The notes under the pieces are model-generated. The model searched no databases and was not told the DNA's origin. It was given only the letters and a program-made list of their open reading frames with translations. From positions 38,748 through 102,747 of the forward strand of contig JAGQRV010000004.1 in assembly GCA_020425125.1 (NCBI GenBank): 64,000 nt of DNA, in the 5' to 3' direction. The position numbers and the translations under genes were made by a program. Shown here in pieces: positions 4,519-34,489 of this stretch (its first letter is position 1; each line of letters opens with the position of its first letter). The DNA comes from Paracoccaceae bacterium. Its GTDB lineage: Bacteria > Pseudomonadota > Alphaproteobacteria > Rhodobacterales > Rhodobacteraceae.

Positions 4519-4863
4519 ATGACAGTGCAGCCGCCAACGCCGTTTCCCGATCCCCGCGTTCCGGTCGATCAGGTCGCCTTCGAGCGGGCCGAACTGAATC
4601 TCATCCTCGCCCTCTACGGACGCATGGTCGCCGCCGGCGAATGGCGCGACTACGGCATCTCGCATCTGCGCGACCACGCGGTCTTCGCGATCTTCCGGCG
4701 TACTGCGGAACACCCGCTCTACCGGATCGAGAAACACCCGCGGCTGCGCCAGCGTCAGGGGATGTATGCGCTCATCGGGATGGACGGGCAGATCCTGAAG
4801 CGCGGGCACGATCTGCGGACGGTTCTGCGGCTGCTGGAACGCAAGCTCATCCGCGCCATCTGA
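4519..4863 (+). CDS. DUF2794 family protein
   Basis: This 114-residue soluble protein has no signal peptide or membrane segment. The body, residues 15-114, matches the alphaproteobacterial DUF2794 family as I know it: a conserved early segment FERAELNLILALYGRMVAAGEWRDYGI, then RHPLYRIEK-like and GMYALIGMDGQILKRGHDL. No biochemical function is established for the family. It stands alone between imuB and a minus-strand gene, with which it converges (23 bp between stops). Confidence 0.8.
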   Translation: MTVQPPTPFPDPRVPVDQVAFERAELNLILALYGRMVAAGEWRDYGISHLRDHAVFAIFRRTAEHPLYRIEKHPRLRQRQGMYALIGMDGQILKRGHDLRTVLRLLERKLIRAI

Positions 4864-4885
4864 CGCCCGCGGGCGTCCGCACCGC

Positions 4886-5656
4886 TCAGTCGACCAACAG
4901 TCGACGCCGCGCGATCAGCCGCCCGCCGCCCTGCTTGGCGATCCGGCGCACCGCCTCTTCGGCGAGTTCGAACACCACCGCCATGTGATGGGCATTGGCA
5001 TGGATCAACCGGTCCGGCGCCACCGCCATCGCCACATGCCCGTCCCAGAACAAGAGGTCGCCGCGGGCCAGCGGCACCTCGATGCCGACCGGCGTGCCGG
5101 CTTCGCGCGCCTGATCGCCGCTGTCGCCCGGACAGGGAATGCCGCAGGCATGGCAGGCGATCTGCACCAGCCCCGAACAGTCGAGCCCGAGACGACTGTT
5201 GCCGCCCCAGAGATAGGGCGTGCCGAGGAACAGCTCCGCAACCCCGGCAGGATCGCGGAAATGCCGGCCCACCCGGGTGACATGGACCTTGGGCACGTAG
5301 CGTCCGTCATGCGTACGAAGGAATCCGTCCGAATCGCCATCGAGGGTCAGGCGGGAGCCGAAGGACAGGCCTTCGGTATCGCGCGCCTTGATGTCGGGCG
5401 CGGCGTAAAGGTGGGTGCCAAGCGCGATGACCCTGTGGGTGGCCTCCTGCGCCGGGGCCAGATCGGTCGGCTTCATCACGCCGCGATAGCCGTCCCGGAC
5501 CGCCCTGACGGCAATCCAGCCCTCCCGGTCGCCGATCTGCTCCACGGTCTCGCCATAGACCAGCTGCCGCAGCCGCGCGCCGCCAGGCTCGTCGCGGATA
5601 TCGGCGACCGGCACCGTCACCTGGTGCAGTTTCGGATTCGGATCGGCGGAGAGCAT
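4886..5656 (-). CDS. NlpC/P60 family peptidase with N-terminal SH3-like domain
   Basis: This 256-residue protein probably cleaves peptide stems in cell wall fragments. An SH3-like segment covers residues 12-65 (VADIRDEPGGARLRQLVYGE, GWIAVRA). The catalytic domain runs from about 130 to 250, with the nucleophile C160 in GLDCSGLV, H207 in FWDGHVAM and a third polar residue at H219 in LIHANAHH. No signal peptide is seen, so it may act on recycled muropeptides in the cytoplasm, like DipeptidylPeptidase-VI-type relatives. It lies 41 bp downstream of a leucyl aminopeptidase on the same strand, which fits a joint role in peptide turnover. Confidence 0.85.
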   Translation of the reverse strand: MLSADPNPKLHQVTVPVADIRDEPGGARLRQLVYGETVEQIGDREGWIAVRAVRDGYRGVMKPTDLAPAQEATHRVIALGTHLYAAPDIKARDTEGLSFGSRLTLDGDSDGFLRTHDGRYVPKVHVTRVGRHFRDPAGVAELFLGTPYLWGGNSRLGLDCSGLVQIACHACGIPCPGDSGDQAREAGTPVGIEVPLARGDLLFWDGHVAMAVAPDRLIHANAHHMAVVFELAEEAVRRIAKQGGGRLIARRRLLVD

Positions 5657-5697
5657 GGACGGGTTCCCGGTCTGTGGTCGCGCCCCGCGTGCCTATC

Positions 5698-7092
5698 TCA
5701 TGGGTCGGAAAGGTCAAGCAGGCCGGGCAGCGCCGCGAGGAGCGCACGCGCACCCTGACCGACACCGCCCACGGGTCGACCGGGCGCCGCCGCCGGCTGC
5801 CAGCCGAATATGTCGAAATGCACGAAGCGCGGCGTACCGGTGACGAAGCGGTGCAGGAACAGGGCGGCGGTAACGGCACCGGCAAACCCGCCCTTGGGGG
5901 CGTTGTCGAGATCGGCAATGCCGGGCTCGATCATCGCTTCGTAGGGGGTATGAAGCGGAAGGTGCCAAACCGGATCGCGCGACGTCTCGCCGGCTTCGGA
6001 AAGCGCCCGGGCAACGGACGGATCCCGCGTGAAGAACGGCGCAATGTCCGGCCCCACCGCGACGCGGGCCGCGCCGGTCAGCGTCGCCATGGACACCAGC
6101 AGGTCCGGCGTTTCCTCGTCGGCGAGGGCGAGCGCGTCGGCCAGAACCAGCCGCCCCTCGGCATCGGTATTGTTGATCTCGACCGTGAGCCCCTTGCGCG
6201 AGGTCAGGATGTCCTGCGGCCGGAAGGCGGCGCCGCCGACCGAATTCTCGACCGCCGGGATCAGCACCCGCAGCCGCACCGGCAGCTCGAGCGCCAGGAT
6301 CATTCGCGCCAGCCCCAGCACCGTCGCGGCACCGCCCATGTCCTTCTTCATCAGACCCATGGACGAAGCGGGCTTGAGGTCGAGGCCGCCGGTGTCGAAG
6401 CAGACGCCCTTGCCAACCAGGGTCAGGCGCGGGCCGTTGCGGCCGTGGCGCAGATCGATCAGCCGCGGCTGCCGCGGCGAGGCACGGCCGACCGCGTGGA
6501 TCATCGGCAGGTTCCCGGTCAGGAGGTCGGCGCCCTCGACAACTGAAATGCCCGCGCCGAAGCGGTCGGCAAGATCACGCGCGGCCGCCTCCAGTTCGGC
6601 GGGTCCCATGTCGGATGCCGGAGTGTTGATCAGATCCCGCGTCAGACATTCGCCGACGGCGATCGCTTCGAGACGCCGGACATCGACAGAGGCAGGCGGC
6701 GCCAGCCGTGCGAGAACCGGCGGCTTTCCGCCATAGCGGGTGAAGCTGTAGCCGCCCAGCAGCCAGCCCAGCGCCGCCTCGTCGGCCTCCGCCGGATCAA
6801 GCGGGGTGGCGAGATGCCAGTCGCCTTCGGGAAGAGATGCGGGCGCAGAGCCGAGAAGGAACCGGACCCGTCCGCGCCGGGCCGCCGGCCCAAGCCCGAA
6901 CGCGGCCCCGGCACAGGCCCCATCCGGCCCGGGCAGCAGCAGAATTTCGCCGGCCGCGGCCGCGAACCGGCTGCTCGCGACCCACGCGGCGACCTGCGGC
7001 GGCTGTGCGTCGCGCCAGCCGGCCAGCGCCTCGGCGGATACAAGATGAAGCGGGCGGGACGGGCTGTCTGAGGGGGCGAATGCGAGGCTCAT
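5698..7092 (-). CDS. Leucyl aminopeptidase family protein (M17)
   Basis: This 464-residue cytosolic metallopeptidase removes N-terminal amino acids. The catalytic domain has the expected residues: K228 and D233 in LVGKGVCFDTGG, D251 in LMKKDMGG, and D310, E312 and R314 in NNTDAEGRLVLADAL. The N-terminal 150 residues are the poorly conserved M17 N-domain. I chose the ATG at 7092 (MSLAFAPSD), because the frame is open further upstream but that stretch is arginine-rich and does not look like protein. It is probably cotranscribed with the NlpC/P60 gene that follows. Confidence 0.9.
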   Translation of the reverse strand: MSLAFAPSDSPSRPLHLVSAEALAGWRDAQPPQVAAWVASSRFAAAAGEILLLPGPDGACAGAAFGLGPAARRGRVRFLLGSAPASLPEGDWHLATPLDPAEADEAALGWLLGGYSFTRYGGKPPVLARLAPPASVDVRRLEAIAVGECLTRDLINTPASDMGPAELEAAARDLADRFGAGISVVEGADLLTGNLPMIHAVGRASPRQPRLIDLRHGRNGPRLTLVGKGVCFDTGGLDLKPASSMGLMKKDMGGAATVLGLARMILALELPVRLRVLIPAVENSVGGAAFRPQDILTSRKGLTVEINNTDAEGRLVLADALALADEETPDLLVSMATLTGAARVAVGPDIAPFFTRDPSVARALSEAGETSRDPVWHLPLHTPYEAMIEPGIADLDNAPKGGFAGAVTAALFLHRFVTGTPRFVHFDIFGWQPAAAPGRPVGGVGQGARALLAALPGLLDLSDP

Positions 7093-28308: not shown

Positions 28309-28676
28309 CCCCCGACGGCTTCTTCGCATTTTCGCTGCAGATCGGCTTCGTCCTGATCCTCGTCTCGCTGCTTCTGGGCTTTGCCCGCCTCGCACGGGGG
28401 CCGACCTTTTCGGATCGTGTCGTCGCGCTCGACATGATGTCCACCTCGGTCGTGGCCTTCTGCGCGGTCGACGCCCTGCAGACCGGCACGCCGGCCTATC
28501 TGGACGTGGCCATCGTTCTCGCGCTCATCAACTTCCTCTCCACCCTCGCGCTCGCCCGCTTCGCGGAGCGCGCACTCGACCGGCGCAGGGACCATCCGAC
28601 GCTTCCGGCCGAGCGGCTGGACCACGTGACCGAGACCCACAGCCCCGAGGGAAGCCCGCCGGAGACCCGCCCATGA
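28305..28676 (+). CDS. mrpF: Na+/H+ antiporter subunit MrpF
   Basis: This 123-residue protein has three membrane helices. The MnhF signature RLARGPTFSDRVVALDMMSTSVVAF is at about residues 28-52, followed by PAYLDVAIVLALINFLSTLALARF and a hydrophilic C-terminal tail of about 35 residues that is longer than usual. It overlaps mrpE and mrpG by 4 bp each. Confidence 0.93.
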   Translation: MTPDGFFAFSLQIGFVLILVSLLLGFARLARGPTFSDRVVALDMMSTSVVAFCAVDALQTGTPAYLDVAIVLALINFLSTLALARFAERALDRRRDHPTLPAERLDHVTETHSPEGSPPETRP

Positions 28677-29002
28677 CCGAGATCATCGCAGGCATCTTCG
28701 TGCTTCTGGGCGCGGGCTTCGTCTTCATCGCGGCGCTTGGCGTCTACCGGCTTCCGGACGTCCTGAACCGGATGCACGCTTCGACCAAGGCGGGAACTCT
28801 GGGCTGTGCGCTGGCCCTCACGGCGGCGGCAATCCAGTTCGGGTCCACGGCCATCACGGCGAAGGTGATCGCCACAATCCTGTTCCTGATGCTGACCGCA
28901 CCGATCGCCGCGCACATGATCGGTCGCGCCACCGTGCAGCTGCGCGCGTTCCGCGAAGCCTTGCGCGAGCAGGAGCGTCAGGAGCGGCGGAACTCGTCGT
29001 AG
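28673..29002 (+). CDS. mrpG: Na+/H+ antiporter subunit MrpG
   Basis: This 109-residue protein has three membrane helices and the MnhG signature GVYRLPDVLNRMHASTKAGTLGCAL, followed by a conserved ILFLMLTAPIAAHMIGRA. It completes the mrpABCDEFG operon. Its end overlaps the 3' end of the minus-strand GST gene by 25 bp. Confidence 0.93.
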   Translation: MTEIIAGIFVLLGAGFVFIAALGVYRLPDVLNRMHASTKAGTLGCALALTAAAIQFGSTAITAKVIATILFLMLTAPIAAHMIGRATVQLRAFREALREQERQERRNSS

Positions 29003-29754
29003 AGACGCTGGATGAATTGACCGGCCGGGCGGTTGCGCAGGGGGCCGATGACTGCTCGCATCTCTGCCGGACAGGCGTCCAGCGACGGCAAGTGCCCGCC
29101 ATAGCCCCGGGCCAGCACCATCGGTGCGCCGGAAGTCGCAAAGGCGAGATCCGCAATCGTCAGGCGCCCGCCGCAAAGAAAGCGTCGCCCGTCGGCAAGC
29201 CGTGCGTCGATCTCGTCCCAGGCGGCATGGATCCGGGCAAGCGCCCGGGCGGCGTCCTCCGGTCCCAGTTTCAGCTTCTGGAACATGATCCGCCGGACGA
29301 GCGGATAGAGAAAGGTCAGAAGAAACTTCTCGGACCTGGGTACGCCGGTGGTGAAGCTCGGCCAGACCAGACGGCGGTGCTGCAGGAAATGGAAATAAGC
29401 CCAGTGGACGGTCCCGTCGCCCATGTCCCAGCGCATCCGGTGCTGCAAATCCATGACGTCGGCGCGCAGTTCGGGCTCGGCCTCGGCATCGGGAACCAGC
29501 CGCCGTTCGGGCGGCGTTTCGGGATCGAGCCGGGCGACCAGTCCCTCGACCATGACGATCTTCTCGTCGCCCCTGATGAACAGCGGAAACTCCGGCTTCT
29601 TCAGCCCGCGCTCCTTGAGTGCGCGGATGTGGAAGATCGGAGCGTGGGGCTCCTCGACATAGTCGATCCCCCAGAGCTGGAGCATCCAGCGCGCCATGTC
29701 CACGTCGGTGGAGGGCAGCAGTGTCACCAGGACGGGCCGATCGGTCATCGGCAC
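28978..29754 (-). CDS. Glutathione S-transferase family protein
   Basis: This 258-residue protein has a GST fold. The N-terminal thioredoxin-like domain (residues 1-85) contains the cis-proline segment KKPEFPLFI and ends GLVARLDP. An all-helical C-terminal domain follows, with the N-capping-box-like DGRRFLCGGRLTIADLAFAT, as in GSTs. The usual catalytic Ser/Tyr/Cys near residue 10-15 is not obvious (LLPSTDVDMARW offers S and T). It is the last gene of a five-gene operon with a P450 and a DyP peroxidase, the P450 stop being 3 bp upstream. I infer that it conjugates or isomerises a product made by the operon's oxidative enzymes. Confidence 0.8.
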   Translation of the reverse strand: MPMTDRPVLVTLLPSTDVDMARWMLQLWGIDYVEEPHAPIFHIRALKERGLKKPEFPLFIRGDEKIVMVEGLVARLDPETPPERRLVPDAEAEPELRADVMDLQHRMRWDMGDGTVHWAYFHFLQHRRLVWPSFTTGVPRSEKFLLTFLYPLVRRIMFQKLKLGPEDAARALARIHAAWDEIDARLADGRRFLCGGRLTIADLAFATSGAPMVLARGYGGHLPSLDACPAEMRAVIGPLRNRPAGQFIQRLYDEFRRS

Positions 29755-29757
29755 GAC

Positions 29758-31116
29758 CTAATCGAAAAGGACGGTGAAGTGTTGTGGGAAAGGGGTCCCG
29801 CCCGTATCGATCCGACCGGCCGCCCCGTCGGCGCGTCGCAGATTCGGCTGCGCCAGCACCGGCTTCAGGATCGCCGGGATGACCGCGGCATTGATCGCCG
29901 CGCCAAAACAGGTGTGCATGCCTGTTCCCCAGATGATGTGATCCTCGAACCGGCGGTTGCCGCGGAAACTTCCCGGCGCGTCGATATCGAAGCGGTCGTA
30001 CATCGCCGAAAGCGTCGCGGCGAACACGATCTGCCCCTTCTTCACGTGCAGTTCGCGCAGGGTGGATCTGGCAATCACCGTGTTGCGGGTCGCGCGCCGA
30101 TAGATCACCGGGTTGTGGGGATTGTGGCGCAACGCCTCCCAGACGACGCCGGCCAGCCGGGTATCGTCCCCCGCGCGGGCTGACTTCTGTGCCAGTTCGA
30201 GGGCTTCGGGCCGGTCCAGGATCGCATCGAGCGCGAGGCAACTCGCCTTCGAGATCGTCGGAATGGCACCGATCAGCAGGCCGAGAAGGTTGTTGCGGAT
30301 ACCGAGATCGGACATGCCCGGCGTTCCCGCGCTCTGAAGCGCGAGGCACCTGTTCAGCAGATCCGGCGCTTCGGTCGGTGCAGCCTTGCGGCTGGCGATG
30401 GCCTCGTCAAGCCAGGTGCGCATGTCGGCCGCATGGCCAAGCGCCTTCGCCTCCAGTGCCGGATCGGCACCGAGATCGCCGAACAGGTACCAGAACATCG
30501 TCGTGGTCCAGTCCTGCATCGTCGCCTTGTCCGGACCGCCGGCGCCGAAATAGGTCTCGGTCATGTCCCAGGGGATTTCCAGGGTCAGCTGCGGCGGCAG
30601 GTCGAGGCGGCCGAAACTGCCGCCCACGATGTCGTCGGCCAGTGCGGTGGCCCGCGGCAGGACAATCTCCTCGACATCCGGGCGCCGCGCGGCGAGCCGC
30701 ATGGCCGAAACGTCCCGCGTGTAGTCCCAGCCCGGCTGCATCCCGAGGAAGAAGTTCTCGCCCTCGGTCAGCTTGCGCATCCGCGGCTCGTAGACGACCT
30801 CGAAATCAGCGTCGCGGCTAAGCACGTCGAGCACGTCCTCGCGCCGCGTCACGATGACGGTACCGGTATTCTCGTAGGCTTTCACCAGTTGCCGTTTCAG
30901 CGAGATGTTCGGCGCAAAGGCACGCAGCACGGCCAGCACCTGCCGCTGTCTCTCCGGCTCCGCCAGGAGCGACCCTGCATTGCCCTTCAGGCCGCCGGGC
31001 GCGCGCGCGGCCCGCAGGCCGGCCCCGGCCAGCCGGGTGGCCGAACCGATCCCCTCGGCCCAGGTCAGGATCACCGCCCAGGAGGTAGTCAGAAGATTTG
31101 CGAGCGACGACAGCAT
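29758..31116 (-). CDS. Cytochrome P450 with atypical I-helix
   Basis: This 452-residue haem-thiolate protein has C403 in WGTGMHTCFGAAIN as the haem ligand and E327-x-x-R330 in VVWEALRHNP (K-helix). In the I-helix, at residues 281-290 (LIGAIPTISK), the acid of the usual AGx(D/E)T is replaced by proline. Such a loss is typical of P450s that use or rearrange peroxides, such as peroxygenases and hydroperoxide lyases, rather than O2-activating monooxygenases. The N-terminal 30 residues are hydrophobic enough for membrane association. No redox partner gene is nearby. It lies between the DyP and GST genes. Substrate unknown; a lipid hydroperoxide is my guess. Confidence 0.9.
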   Translation of the reverse strand: MLSSLANLLTTSWAVILTWAEGIGSATRLAGAGLRAARAPGGLKGNAGSLLAEPERQRQVLAVLRAFAPNISLKRQLVKAYENTGTVIVTRREDVLDVLSRDADFEVVYEPRMRKLTEGENFFLGMQPGWDYTRDVSAMRLAARRPDVEEIVLPRATALADDIVGGSFGRLDLPPQLTLEIPWDMTETYFGAGGPDKATMQDWTTTMFWYLFGDLGADPALEAKALGHAADMRTWLDEAIASRKAAPTEAPDLLNRCLALQSAGTPGMSDLGIRNNLLGLLIGAIPTISKASCLALDAILDRPEALELAQKSARAGDDTRLAGVVWEALRHNPHNPVIYRRATRNTVIARSTLRELHVKKGQIVFAATLSAMYDRFDIDAPGSFRGNRRFEDHIIWGTGMHTCFGAAINAAVIPAILKPVLAQPNLRRADGAAGRIDTGGTPFPQHFTVLFD

Positions 31117-31139
31117 TGCGGGTCCTCCGGGCGGGCAGT

Positions 31140-32813
31140 TCAGGTCGGGTCGACGATGCCGATGGCCATCATCTGAAGCGCTGTGAGGGACGGCAGGAAG
31201 AAGTAATCACCGCCCCGGCACTCCACGAAGGTCTTGAGACCGCTCATGAAATAGGGCGGCTTCCCGCTCTTCGGGTCGGACGGGATGGTATAGCGCCGGT
31301 GCATGTCGTGGTTGCCGACGAGCGGACAGGTCAGGTTGCCCTGGTTGAAGTCGAGCCCATACTGCAGCCATTGCTGCTGCACGAATTCGAACTGCCGGAA
31401 GATGCTGGCACCGATGGTCATCATGATGACCCCCTGCTCGGTGTCATCGCGCCGCCCCTCCGGGATCGTCGGGCCGTAGGGCAGGCCGCGGCGCAGCACC
31501 CGCCGCCGCTTATTGAGCTGGGAAGTGGCTTTCGGGTTGGCACCTGTGGGACTGTTGAGCGGGTCCAGGTAGTCGCGCGTATTCACCCGGCGCAGGTGCG
31601 CGCCGCCGGGGCACTTGTACCCCGCCATGTCGTCGGCATAGCGGAAGTCCGACGCCGCCCGCGACCCGAGATAGTCCCGCTGCGCCAGAAGCGCCTTGAT
31701 CGGATCGGGATCGTCCATGCCCGTCTCGCTGCGCACCCTGTGCCAGTCTGCGACGGTCGGCGCCACGGACAACGGGACACCGTCGGACCAGCGTCCCACC
31801 ATCTTGGCTTTCAGGGTTTCCGCCGCCTCGTCTTCACTCACCCCCATCACGCGGGCAAACCGTGCCGCCTCGTCGGCAATGACCGCGTCGAACGTACCCA
31901 CGTTCTCATGCAGCTTGCGGTAGGTCATGAAGCTGCCATTGCGGCTGAAAGACGGCGGCATCGCGGTCGGCGGGAGTTCCTGACTTTCGTCGGGATAGCC
32001 GAGGATGAACTCTCCCGCCGCGATCGGCTGCCAGCCCTTGTCGGCCTGCATCCACTTGCCGCGGCCGATCACCGCGTCCTTTTCGGCCTCCGGTGGGTAC
32101 TGCCCGTCGAACACCGGATCGCCGATGCCGTCGGTGAAGCCGAAATGCTCGCGCGGGGTCGGCACACGCAGCCCGCCGATTTCGGTGAAGACTGCCGATG
32201 CGCCCTGATATTCCTCGTTGCCGGCAGATCCGTTCGCGGCCAGGATTCGGACGCGGTTTCCGAGTTCGCCGCAGATCCCGCGCAGCCAGTCACACTGCGC
32301 GTCCAGTTCCGGCGCCGGAATGTCGGAGCCTTCGCCGGCAGCCTGGGCGTTCATCGAAATCCAGACGTGGACATCCTCGCCCTTGCTCTCGCGGTTCTGC
32401 TGCCAGATCGGATCCCAGTGCCGGCACCAGGCGCCGACCTCTTCCTCGGTCTTGGTCGGATCGCGGTCGCCCAGGATGAAGGCGCGCGCCTTCATTCCGT
32501 CGATGAATTCCTCTGGCATTGTCTTCAATGTGCGGGTCGGCAGGCCGAGCGCGTAAAGACCGAAGAAGGTGAAGCCGATGTTCAGCGTGACCTTGGGCTT
32601 GGTGTCGCCCCAATAGGCCGCCGTGGTGACCCGAGGGCGCACCAGTTCGATGAATCGCCGTCCCGCGTCGGCGTCGGCAATGTTGAGGAAGAAATAGCGC
32701 GCGAAGGGAAACGAGAACCGCCCATAGGCGCGGGTGATGTTTCCCTGGATATCATCCAGATTGAGGATCCGCGTCATCGTCGCGGCTTTCCCGCCCGTGC
32801 TGCTTCCGTCCAT
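31140..32813 (-). CDS. DyP-type haem peroxidase
   Basis: This 557-residue enzyme is of the long DyP type. The family motif GFTDG is at 225-229, with the catalytic D228, and the proximal haem histidine is H406 in CPGGAHLRRVN. The distal arginine probably lies in RRGLPYGP, farther along. The first domain begins DIQGNITRAYGRF and has the ARYFFLNI ferredoxin-like strand. No signal peptide is present, so it is cytoplasmic. The ATG at 32813 overlaps the preceding stop by one base (TGATG); MTRILN at 32777 is an alternative start. It would oxidise a substrate with H2O2, or another hydroperoxide, upstream of the P450. Confidence 0.9.
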   Translation of the reverse strand: MDGSSTGGKAATMTRILNLDDIQGNITRAYGRFSFPFARYFFLNIADADAGRRFIELVRPRVTTAAYWGDTKPKVTLNIGFTFFGLYALGLPTRTLKTMPEEFIDGMKARAFILGDRDPTKTEEEVGAWCRHWDPIWQQNRESKGEDVHVWISMNAQAAGEGSDIPAPELDAQCDWLRGICGELGNRVRILAANGSAGNEEYQGASAVFTEIGGLRVPTPREHFGFTDGIGDPVFDGQYPPEAEKDAVIGRGKWMQADKGWQPIAAGEFILGYPDESQELPPTAMPPSFSRNGSFMTYRKLHENVGTFDAVIADEAARFARVMGVSEDEAAETLKAKMVGRWSDGVPLSVAPTVADWHRVRSETGMDDPDPIKALLAQRDYLGSRAASDFRYADDMAGYKCPGGAHLRRVNTRDYLDPLNSPTGANPKATSQLNKRRRVLRRGLPYGPTIPEGRRDDTEQGVIMMTIGASIFRQFEFVQQQWLQYGLDFNQGNLTCPLVGNHDMHRRYTIPSDPKSGKPPYFMSGLKTFVECRGGDYFFLPSLTALQMMAIGIVDPT

Positions 32814-33808
32814 CACGACACCAATCCCTTCGCTGCCCGGCTGGAAATCACGCCCGGCGCCTGGCTGGGGGCCATCCGGTTGTCTGGCCTGTGCTGCGCC
32901 AGAAACTCGCCGAATGCGCGATGCAGGTCTTCGGGGGACGCGCCCTGGTGATCGACCACGAAATCCGCGAAATTCTGTTGCACATAGAGCGACTTCAGCA
33001 CAGAGGGCAGGCTGCCGTAGCGCTCGGGCGGCAACGGCTTCTGCCCGTTGGCCAGGACGTAGCGGTAGAGCGCATAGACCACCGCCGCCGTCGCAACGAG
33101 GCCGCCGACGATGCCCCAGCCACCCCACCAGCCGACGATGAGGCCCAGAAGCGTGATGATCACCGGAACCGAGACTGCCACGATCATCTCGTTGACCGGA
33201 AGGTTCTTCAATTCGGGTGGAGTGATCCAGTAATCGTGGAACGGCATGGTCGTCTCGATCTGGCAGCGCGCCATGTAGCGGGCGAAGCTGTCCGCGTCCG
33301 TGACCTCGTCGAAGCCCCAGCAATTGCTGTAGATCGAGCGCAATTCGGGCTCCATCGTCGTCCAGAGCCGGCGGAGATAGGCGTCGCGCACGAGATTCTG
33401 GCGTTCCGGGGTCAGGGCCGCCGGCAGATCGTCGCCTTCGTCCATCACGGCATCGATATCGGCCGCGAAAAGCAGGTATGACGAGGTCAGCTTGTCCACC
33501 GGCTGCGGAAAGATCGGATCGCCCCCGGAAATCGAGGTCTCGATCGCGTCCCGTGGATTGCGGCCGTTATAGATCACGTCGTCGAGCACCATGAAGCGGC
33601 AGAGATGCGTTTGCCGGTTCCGCGCGAAGGGGCTGGTTTCGCCGATGCGTTGGGTCGCCGGCGATTGCAGCGCCGTGGGAAGCAGTGCCAGGATGATCCT
33701 GAGCCGCTGCTCGAAGGAGACCGGCTTGCCGGTGACATCGTCCGTCGCACCCAGCCGGATCGGCGTCAGGAACGTCAGAAACAGGTGGCCGGTGTCGAAA
33801 TTGGGCAT
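32813..33808 (-). CDS. Unknown membrane-anchored protein linked to DyP/P450
   Basis: I recognise no named family. The 331-residue protein has a soluble N-terminal domain of about 200 residues with the segments GHLFLTFLTPIR, THLCRFMVLDD (67-77), YLLFAADID (111-119) and IYSNCWGFD (159-167). Two close membrane helices follow at about 208-252 (a long Gly/Trp-rich stretch), then a soluble tail that includes NFADFVVDHQG. The H-L-C-R-F-M-V and L-L-F-A-A-D motifs recur in the next-upstream gene, so the two are probably related and may have a ferredoxin-like fold. It may hold the enzymes at the membrane or bind substrate. It is coupled to the DyP gene by TGATG. Confidence 0.65.
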   Translation of the reverse strand: MPNFDTGHLFLTFLTPIRLGATDDVTGKPVSFEQRLRIILALLPTALQSPATQRIGETSPFARNRQTHLCRFMVLDDVIYNGRNPRDAIETSISGGDPIFPQPVDKLTSSYLLFAADIDAVMDEGDDLPAALTPERQNLVRDAYLRRLWTTMEPELRSIYSNCWGFDEVTDADSFARYMARCQIETTMPFHDYWITPPELKNLPVNEMIVAVSVPVIITLLGLIVGWWGGWGIVGGLVATAAVVYALYRYVLANGQKPLPPERYGSLPSVLKSLYVQQNFADFVVDHQGASPEDLHRAFGEFLAQHRPDNRMAPSQAPGVISSRAAKGLVS

Positions 33809-33811
33809 CGC

Positions 33812-34489
33812 CTAATCCTCTCCGTCCCGCTCGTAATCGTAGATCTGCGCCAGGTTGCGGACAGCGTTCCGGCGGTTGATATCGGCCCTCTCGGTGTCGA
33901 GACTCGCCACCGGTCCGAATCCGGGATCGCCGAGGCATCCCTGAACGCTGGACATCTGGGCAAGATAGGTTTTCGCGAACTCCTCCGGCGTTTGCGCGCC
34001 ATGCGCCGCGGCCAGCGCCTCCACCGCGCGGTAGACCCGCATCGCGCACTTCACGTCGCGCTGCGCCGAACCGGGTGTGGCGTTGTAGTAATAGTCGGTC
34101 ATGACCTGGTTGTAGGTGATGTAGTTCTTGAACGTCGTGACCGGGATCGACTGCGGATACTTGGTCGCCGTGTACCAGAACAGGTTGAGACCGTTCGGTA
34201 TGCCGTCCGAAAAGGCGTCGATGTACTGGTCCCACGTGCCGTTGAAGTTCGAGCAGAACAGCATGTAGTCGTTCGCGAGGACCTGCTTGCCCTGTCCGAG
34301 ATCGGGCCATTCGTCTCGCCGGATGATGACCCAGCGCGCGAAATGGATAAGCGAGAGGCCGAGAAGACCGCTCAACGTCTTCGGCAATCCGCGGGCCACC
34401 ATGAAGAGCAGGCGGTTGGCCCAAGTCAGATACGGCTTGCTCGGCGTCACGACGTTCATCGCGTACGCCTTGCCGGCGATGTTCGACAT
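33812..34489 (-). CDS. Unknown protein, first gene of the DyP/P450/GST operon
   Basis: I recognise no named family. The 225-residue protein carries a weak hydrophobic segment near residues 38-50, then HFARWVII (49-56), YMLFCSNFNGTWDQYIDAF (75-93) and LFWYTATKYP (103-112), followed by a Tyr/Asn-rich helical part (YITYNQVMTDYYYNATPGS). These motifs parallel those of the 331-residue neighbour. A strong purine-rich ribosome site (GGGGGGGAGGG) sits directly before the ATG at 34489. It is divergent from sltF. Function unknown; it may bind a substrate or haem-enzyme partner. Confidence 0.65.
   Translation of the reverse strand: MSNIAGKAYAMNVVTPSKPYLTWANRLLFMVARGLPKTLSGLLGLSLIHFARWVIIRRDEWPDLGQGKQVLANDYMLFCSNFNGTWDQYIDAFSDGIPNGLNLFWYTATKYPQSIPVTTFKNYITYNQVMTDYYYNATPGSAQRDVKCAMRVYRAVEALAAAHGAQTPEEFAKTYLAQMSSVQGCLGDPGFGPVASLDTERADINRRNAVRNLAQIYDYERDGED

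Follow-up and report, generated by a model that had tools for sequence, protein, structure and literature searches.

A 64,000-nucleotide stretch of a Paracoccaceae genome (the window; contig JAGQRV010000004.1, positions 38,748 to 102,747) carries five closely packed genes on the minus strand, two of which encode haem enzymes. In the direction of transcription the products are A225 (225 aa; 33812..34489), which has an unnamed domain, here termed the A domain (IHFARW ... SNFNGTWDQYIDAF ...), of no known family; B331 (331 aa; 32813..33808), with an A-type domain and a predicted membrane segment at about residues 208-255; a DyP-type haem peroxidase (557 aa; 31140..32813, with its ATG at 32813); a divergent cytochrome P450 (452 aa; 29758..31116, with ExxR at residues 327-330, Cys403, Pro286 and Thr287); and, as an optional fifth member, a glutathione S-transferase (GST)-family protein (258 aa; 28978..29754). 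The intergenic gaps are 3, -1, 23 and 3 bp, and the coordinates thus bear out the tight same-strand operon reported in a preliminary description of this DNA.

Scanning contigs with the P450 as bait retrieved 31 loci, mainly from Rhodobacteraceae and their allies and also from Maricaulaceae, Nisaea and two other Alphaproteobacteria; presence of the P450 at these loci is by construction. The order A225-B331-DyP-P450 on one strand was found in 30 of the 31, including L028, where the P450 lies in two frame-shifted pieces. The exception, L015, has only a piece of A225 together with the P450: at L015:7797-9425, on the same contig as L093, the first ~70 residues of A225 are followed in frame by the P450 while B331 and the DyP are gone, apparently a collapsed operon. 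Some DyP and A225 assignments at the P450-seeded loci contain extension artefacts ('stop inside'), including a gap of -1020 at L008. One of the carriers is the laboratory strain Salipiger bermudensis HTCC2601 (L009). Genes flanking the operon vary between loci, except in small groups of shared synteny (e.g. the window, L002, L003, L014 and L021).

An unbiased test of linkage, unlike the P450-seeded loci, was provided by 248 genomes of the source family. A225 was detected in 12 (E 1e-3), the P450 in 10 and the DyP in 11 (both E 1e-40), and the P450 and DyP sets lay wholly inside the A225 set; the exceptions were G001 and G240 (no P450), G221 (no DyP) and G094 (DyP broken). In this last genome the DyP gene is split into three frames (L085:5264-6912), and A225, B331 and the P450 look intact. 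Rare linkage in other genomes would have refuted the preliminary description; linkage proved tight both at the seeded loci and in the family survey, and because the gene set is conserved across genomes a chance grouping is excluded. A225, B331, DyP and P450 are a conserved unit. The proposed fifth member held up less well, as the GST gene follows the P450 in 21 of the 31 loci (21 of the 30 where this is testable, L029 ending 209 bases after the P450). It also occurs at L103, in a genome from another class, and at L007:9341-10894 a tandem pair of GST genes follows the P450.

Beyond the source family, a profile of the A domain matched 23 of 349 genomes of the same phylum, and a DyP gene was adjacent in 23 of 23 (flanks were fetched for 22, and the window was used for G000). 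Fourteen were of the P450 type, two of them (L121, L122) with a divergent P450; six had a catalase-family gene and three neither. Across 94 loci checked, the DyP was missing only at L015 and L093; these loci, like the 90 DyPs aligned below, were not de-duplicated and include some genomes twice (e.g. L015/L093, L031/L083). A tblastn search of plasmids with A225 gave 10 records, and in the seven opened its relatives stand beside DyP genes or within very large proteins. In two other searches 13 of 41 and 4 of 31 records were read. At L141 of Sinorhizobium medicae an A-like stretch lies beside an IS630 transposase, with no peroxidase in the annotation.

To characterize the proteins, alignments were built from the window copy and 22 (A1), 23 (A2), 24 (A3), 18 (A4) or 20 (A5) of the 31 P450-seeded loci. 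A225 shares 66-82% identity with its 22 relatives in A1, which neighbour DyP genes, and matches no Pfam or NCBIfam model at E 1. The sole Pfam or NCBIfam match of B331 is a sub-threshold one to PhoR (17.5 against 27.1 bits, residues 216-278), so the two proteins that the preliminary description left unrecognised match no usable model in either library. Its suggestion that B331 is membrane-anchored agrees with hydropathy: the 19-aa Kyte-Doolittle mean reaches 2.64 at residue 208, and the best window is at least 2.2 in all 24 aligned sequences, the window copy included. Direct comparison of the A225 and B331 profiles gave no similarity. However, a Granulicella protein matches both (1.4e-15 with A1, 1.8e-23 with A2), and a broader profile that includes it, A6, matches A2 with 96% probability (E 4.7e-9). 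On the basis of this intermediate and of A6, A225 and B331 are paralogous, B331 having an added membrane segment. The idea that the A domain is half of a DyP fold was rejected, as the profiles show no similarity, and profile searches of the Protein Data Bank (PDB) with A1, A2 and A6 returned nothing or weak unrelated matches.

The DyP falls below curated cut-offs (PF21105, 26.8 against 27.5; TIGR01413, 75.1 against 100.5), and its assignment as a divergent member of the DyP type is made on residues and on likeness to solved DyPs (8re3, E 1.2e-41). Asp228 (GxxDG), the proximal His406 and Arg441 are invariant in A5, and these three together with Arg341 are all kept in 90 of 90 aligned DyPs, window included. 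The closest solved relative is DrDyP of Deinococcus radiodurans (8re2/8re3), which by search is identical to the DyP of L123. On that plasmid (L123:4903-9129) the order is 3-hydroxyacyl-CoA dehydrogenase, A-domain protein, DrDyP, catalase-family protein; compared with the window the partner is thus a catalase-family protein and not a P450, B331 is absent and the dehydrogenase lies upstream. The DrDyP study reports a low-spin haem and no activity at physiological pH, and it regards what DyPs do in the cell and act upon as unclear; its main text contains neither 'operon' nor 'catalase' (PMC10820274). That the A-domain partner may activate DrDyP is a testable idea.

The P450 is divergent yet recognisable (PF00067, 27.2 bits against a cut-off of 22.8). 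ExxR (E327-R330) and Cys403 are invariant in A3. In the I-helix, Pro286 replaces the acid of the O2-activating acid-alcohol pair while the alcohol, Thr287, is retained. Every sequence of A3, the close set, has proline at this position (25 of 25), as have 27 of 31 more diverse relatives, the others having Asp (two), Ala (one) or Gly (one); the other two P450s of the source genome keep Glu. CYP152 peroxygenases, which use H2O2, have Arg-Pro in place of the acid-alcohol pair. A CYP152-like arrangement was considered here and rejected, since alignment with canonical P450s gives Pro-Thr, the acid being the residue changed to Pro. None of the 60 best solved matches listed for the P450 profile bears the name of CYP74, thromboxane synthase (TXS), prostacyclin synthase (PGIS), or fungal linoleate diol synthase or allene oxide synthase. 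The usual I-helix pattern is likewise altered in self-sufficient P450s whose reaction is a rearrangement of hydroperoxides or endoperoxides, TXS having Ile345 and PGIS Asn287, and the TXS motif as printed keeps the acid and loses the alcohol (PMC13049297). The preliminary description held that the P450 could use peroxides; loss of the acid is consistent with peroxide-driven chemistry and does not prove it. Its N-terminus is moderately hydrophobic (Kyte-Doolittle maximum 1.23; 0.71-2.51 in 24 relatives).

The operon had also been described as devoid of a ferredoxin or reductase gene. None is present in the annotation or among the flanking genes; the motif scans, however, add nothing to this. 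One found motif-bearing open reading frames (ORFs) in 4 of 94 loci, and the other flagged 16 of 68, which resembled chance ORFs read in a different frame, and failed to pick up its positive control, the ferredoxin annotated at L136, so that neither carries weight. Ferredoxin is likewise not annotated near the P450s of L046, L047, L049, L124 and L138-L140, in plasmid gene tables that are incomplete. The GST-family protein exceeds the cut-off for GST_C_2 (39.1 against 24.9) and falls below that for GST_N_3 (12.6 against 22). Its gene and mnhG (28673-29002, plus strand) overlap tail to tail by 25 bp at their 3′ ends (window 28978-29002). Of the six flanking ORFs scanned with Pfam, one, of 275 aa, has no match; the others are genes for Mrp antiporter subunits and flhA/fliR-type export genes.

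In relatives the same components are joined. At eight loci (L046, L047, L109, L110, L113, L114, L115, L124), five of which belong to the 23 surveyed A-domain genomes, a single ORF of ~1400-1630 aa spans P450, A domain(s) and DyP, and L097 encodes a DyP-P450 fusion in the reverse order. Plasmid pNL2 of Novosphingobium aromaticivorans is one source of such a P450-A-DyP polypeptide. Directly upstream of three of these giant genes lies an adenylate/guanylate cyclase gene (L109:3864-5645, L113:3685-5460, L047:1815-3578), whose product carries TPR repeats in L109 and L113. Across 30 diverse loci, the correlation between pairwise identities is strong for DyP with the A domain (rho 0.83), lower for P450 with DyP (0.47) and lowest for P450 with the A domain (0.39); the maxima of 500 permutations were 0.22, 0.24 and 0.15, respectively, with the shared ancestry of the genomes left in. 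The A domain and DyP are the core of the system, to which a third enzyme is added as an exchangeable module.

This third module is either the P450 or a catalase-family protein. The best solved match of the catalase-family profile is 3e4w (3.4e-10), the catalase-related MAP_2744c; it also matches true catalases (2isa, 5.8e-9) and, further down, the coral allene oxide synthase 1u5u (3.2e-5). A rule that the two alternatives never occur together proved false, as L132 (unannotated) and L136 have both, with a canonical P450 (AGHETT). L136:995-6968 encodes in a row a ferredoxin, an FAD-dependent oxidoreductase, the canonical P450, a catalase-family protein, an A-domain protein and a DyP, with a transposase alongside; the ferredoxin-linked P450 keeps Glu.

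The window P450 also has relatives with other haem partners. A plasmid search with it yielded eight records: two from Skermanella and one from Pararhizobium, among which L049 and L047 are DyP-type, and five others. Three of these five were read, one per genus (L138, L139, L140); none has an annotated DyP, and their P450s score 5e-61 or better against the window family. A RoxA-like di-haem protein is encoded near the P450 at L138, with a regulator gene between, and at L139, where an oleate hydratase gene lies 5 kb upstream of the P450. At L140:6872-9774, on a Rhizobium etli plasmid, a cyclooxygenase (COX)-like haem peroxidase is encoded 20 bases downstream of the P450; its best solved match is prostaglandin synthase-2 (4.7e-57), and among the proteins scanned PF03098 was found only here. 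Given these DyP, RoxA-like and COX-like neighbours, relatives of the window P450 accompany three unrelated haem proteins, and two of the families include proven fatty-acid oxygenases; the RoxA-like PA2077 of Pseudomonas aeruginosa is reported to be an oleate 10S-dioxygenase (PMC4496055; also PMC5155153 and PMC6377657). A RoxA-like cytochrome gene also lies near an A-DyP pair at L111:4743-6137. Elsewhere in the source genome, contig C28 carries tandem RoxA-like di-haem proteins with two CxxCH each (L150:2828-4348 and 4785-6260), which resemble PA2077/PA2078 and are possibly a second fatty-acid oxygenase system.

Lipid genes accompany part of the family. Among 13 annotated catalase-type plasmid regions (L048, L051, L123, L126, L127, L129, L131, L133-L137, L142), six have an oleate hydratase, 3-hydroxyacyl-CoA dehydrogenase, thioesterase or patatin gene within ~6 kb (L051, L123, L127, L131, L133, L134), a count in which L127 and L133 are close relatives; outside it, genes for acyl-CoA dehydrogenase and electron-transfer flavoprotein lie on the opposite strand at L126. 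Scanning the flanks of eight P450-type loci (10 proteins) revealed lipid genes at three: L106, where a patatin gene separates DyP from P450 and the P450 is immediately followed by a FadL-family gene; L094, with an LCAT-like gene directly after the P450; and L099, with a divergent phospholipase neighbour. At L112 A-DyP is joined to a stretch with weak similarity to GDSL lipases (27.0 bits, against a cut-off of 32.9).

These observations suggest that the operon may encode a membrane-associated lipid-hydroperoxide module of the oxylipin type, with the DyP in the oxygenase slot and the P450 as converter, a reading for which the sequence evidence leaves the balance about even. B331 would tether both A225 and DyP to the inner membrane, as its membrane segment, the adjacency of A-domain and DyP genes and the one-protein fusions suggest. 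The DyP and its A-domain partners would then oxygenate an unsaturated fatty acid or lipid as the first reaction, a role proposed because COX-like or RoxA-like proteins fill the same slot elsewhere. The P450 would take the resulting hydroperoxide as substrate and rearrange it, cleave it or transfer its oxygen, with no electron-transfer partner, which would accord with the lack of the proton-relay acid used for O2 activation. Where present, the GST might conjugate or isomerise the electrophilic product, the weakest step of the scheme. A bolder form, which we hold only tentatively, is that these proteins represent a new class of DyP-fold fatty-acid oxygenase, in which a class C-like DyP would be no free-standing peroxidase but the catalytic subunit in complex with A-domain proteins, producing lipid hydroperoxides from which a swappable P450 or catalase-related enzyme would make oxylipins, as an independently evolved bacterial counterpart of COX-TXS and of fungal dioxygenase-P450 (DOX-CYP) systems. 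If true, it would account for the inactivity at neutral pH of the D. radiodurans DyP when on its own.

Several observations weigh against the lipid-hydroperoxide module. The preliminary description had guessed at an organic, perhaps fatty acid, hydroperoxide; the lipid neighbours of some relatives and the COX- and RoxA-like proteins beside P450 relatives speak for it, but none of the six ORFs scanned around the window copy is a lipid gene, and named lipid genes are missing from 7 of the 13 catalase-type regions and from five of the eight P450-type loci (scanned flanks of L101, L103, L109, L113, L116). Exchange of COX-like and RoxA-like proteins into the slot is drawn from three plasmid loci. 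The P450s linked to them keep Glu-Thr, so loss of the acid is not required for pairing with an oxygenase, and the analogy with TXS is loose because TXS loses the alcohol and the window P450, in reverse, the acid. Several A-DyP loci have neither a P450 nor a catalase-type gene in view (e.g. L088, L090, L091, L108, L120). Structure prediction lends no help either: the AlphaFold model of B331 has no fold match at E 0.001, and that of A225 is poor (predicted local distance difference test score, pLDDT, 48).

The main rival is lipid-peroxide defence, in which the DyP reduces lipid hydroperoxides arising from photo-oxidation or stress, the P450 or catalase-family protein, acting as a peroxygenase or peroxidase, scavenges the rest and the GST clears reactive aldehydes. 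Ordinary peroxidase chemistry is indeed possible for the DyP because it keeps the classic peroxidase residues, a further point against an oxygenase; the alternative partner is a catalase-family protein, one version occurs in D. radiodurans, and katG lies ~4 kb from the Granulicella copy. However, the sparse distribution (12 of 248 family genomes) and the reported inactivity of the D. radiodurans DyP at physiological pH (PMC10820274) argue against such a role, and oleate hydratase, FadL, phospholipase and thioesterase neighbours better suit the use of fatty acids; we consider defence unlikely. A conventional monooxygenase reaction on a specialised lipid-like or aromatic compound, with the P450 served by shared cellular ferredoxin and reductase and the DyP oxidising the product, appears less probable still. 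It gains from features that again count against a peroxide-driven P450, namely that 27 of 31 diverse relatives retain the equivalent of Thr287 and that 2 of 31 DyP-linked P450s have Asp-Thr, and also from the two other P450s of the source genome, for which shared redox partners may exist, and from the canonical P450 of L136 with its ferredoxin and FAD-dependent oxidoreductase beside a catalase-type A-DyP locus. It is opposed by the near-constant Pro at the acid position, by the lack of annotated ferredoxins near P450 relatives in the incomplete plasmid tables and by the direct fusion of P450 to DyP in relatives. Least probable is a secreted secondary metabolite made by radical-type oxidation by the DyP, P450 tailoring and GST conjugation: the optional GST and varied neighbourhoods would suit a mobile tailoring cassette, yet no polyketide, nonribosomal peptide, terpene or ribosomally synthesised peptide (RiPP) synthase was found in the regions opened and flank proteins scanned, which cover part of the neighbourhoods.

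Other enzyme systems offer parallels to the proposed lipid-hydroperoxide module. A peroxidase-type haem enzyme is likewise combined with a thiolate P450 in the COX to TXS/PGIS route and in the fungal dioxygenase-P450 fusions that act as linoleate diol, allene oxide or epoxy-alcohol synthases, the P450s being self-sufficient (PMC13049297), and the fungal proteins place two haem enzymes in one polypeptide, as do relatives of the window operon. However, the window has a DyP and no COX-like (PF03098) dioxygenase and is thus not a DOX-CYP pair; the giant proteins of its relatives have the P450 first and A-domain modules between. The P450 and COX-like pair of L140 is a bacterial two-gene counterpart of DOX-CYP. 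The oleate diol synthase of P. aeruginosa (PA2077/PA2078, di-haem FadCcp), involved in oxylipin signalling, likewise combines a bacterial fatty-acid oxygenase with a hydroperoxide-converting enzyme. This likeness extends to the RoxA-like proteins near relatives of the window P450 and to the FadL-family gene of the L106 operon, an exporter of oxygenated fatty acids, ExFadLO, being named in the reference list of PMC6377657. In contrast, no RoxA-like gene adjoins the window operon, and DyP, A225, B331 and P450 are unrelated proteins. The coral fusion of a catalase-related allene oxide synthase with a lipoxygenase similarly pairs a hydroperoxide-converting haem protein with an oxygenase, but no lipoxygenase was seen here, the catalase-family partner is absent from the window operon and its profile also matches true catalases.

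A literature search for this gene combination or its logic found no description, most subscription papers lying beyond its scope, and 'DyP' and 'dye-decolorizing' are absent from the first 300,000 of the 522,781 characters of a 2024 octadecanoid review. The system may be a dioxygenase-plus-hydroperoxide-P450 type with an unnamed protein family, undescribed as far as this search shows. For a group of DyPs the results add a constant family of partners, to which searches assigned no Pfam or NCBIfam model, a physical link to P450s through fusion and, in several relatives, a lipid context; these make the question of the DyP substrate directly testable. If the proposed module is confirmed, bacteria would gain a further haem route to oxylipins beside the RoxA-like and COX-like oxygenases.

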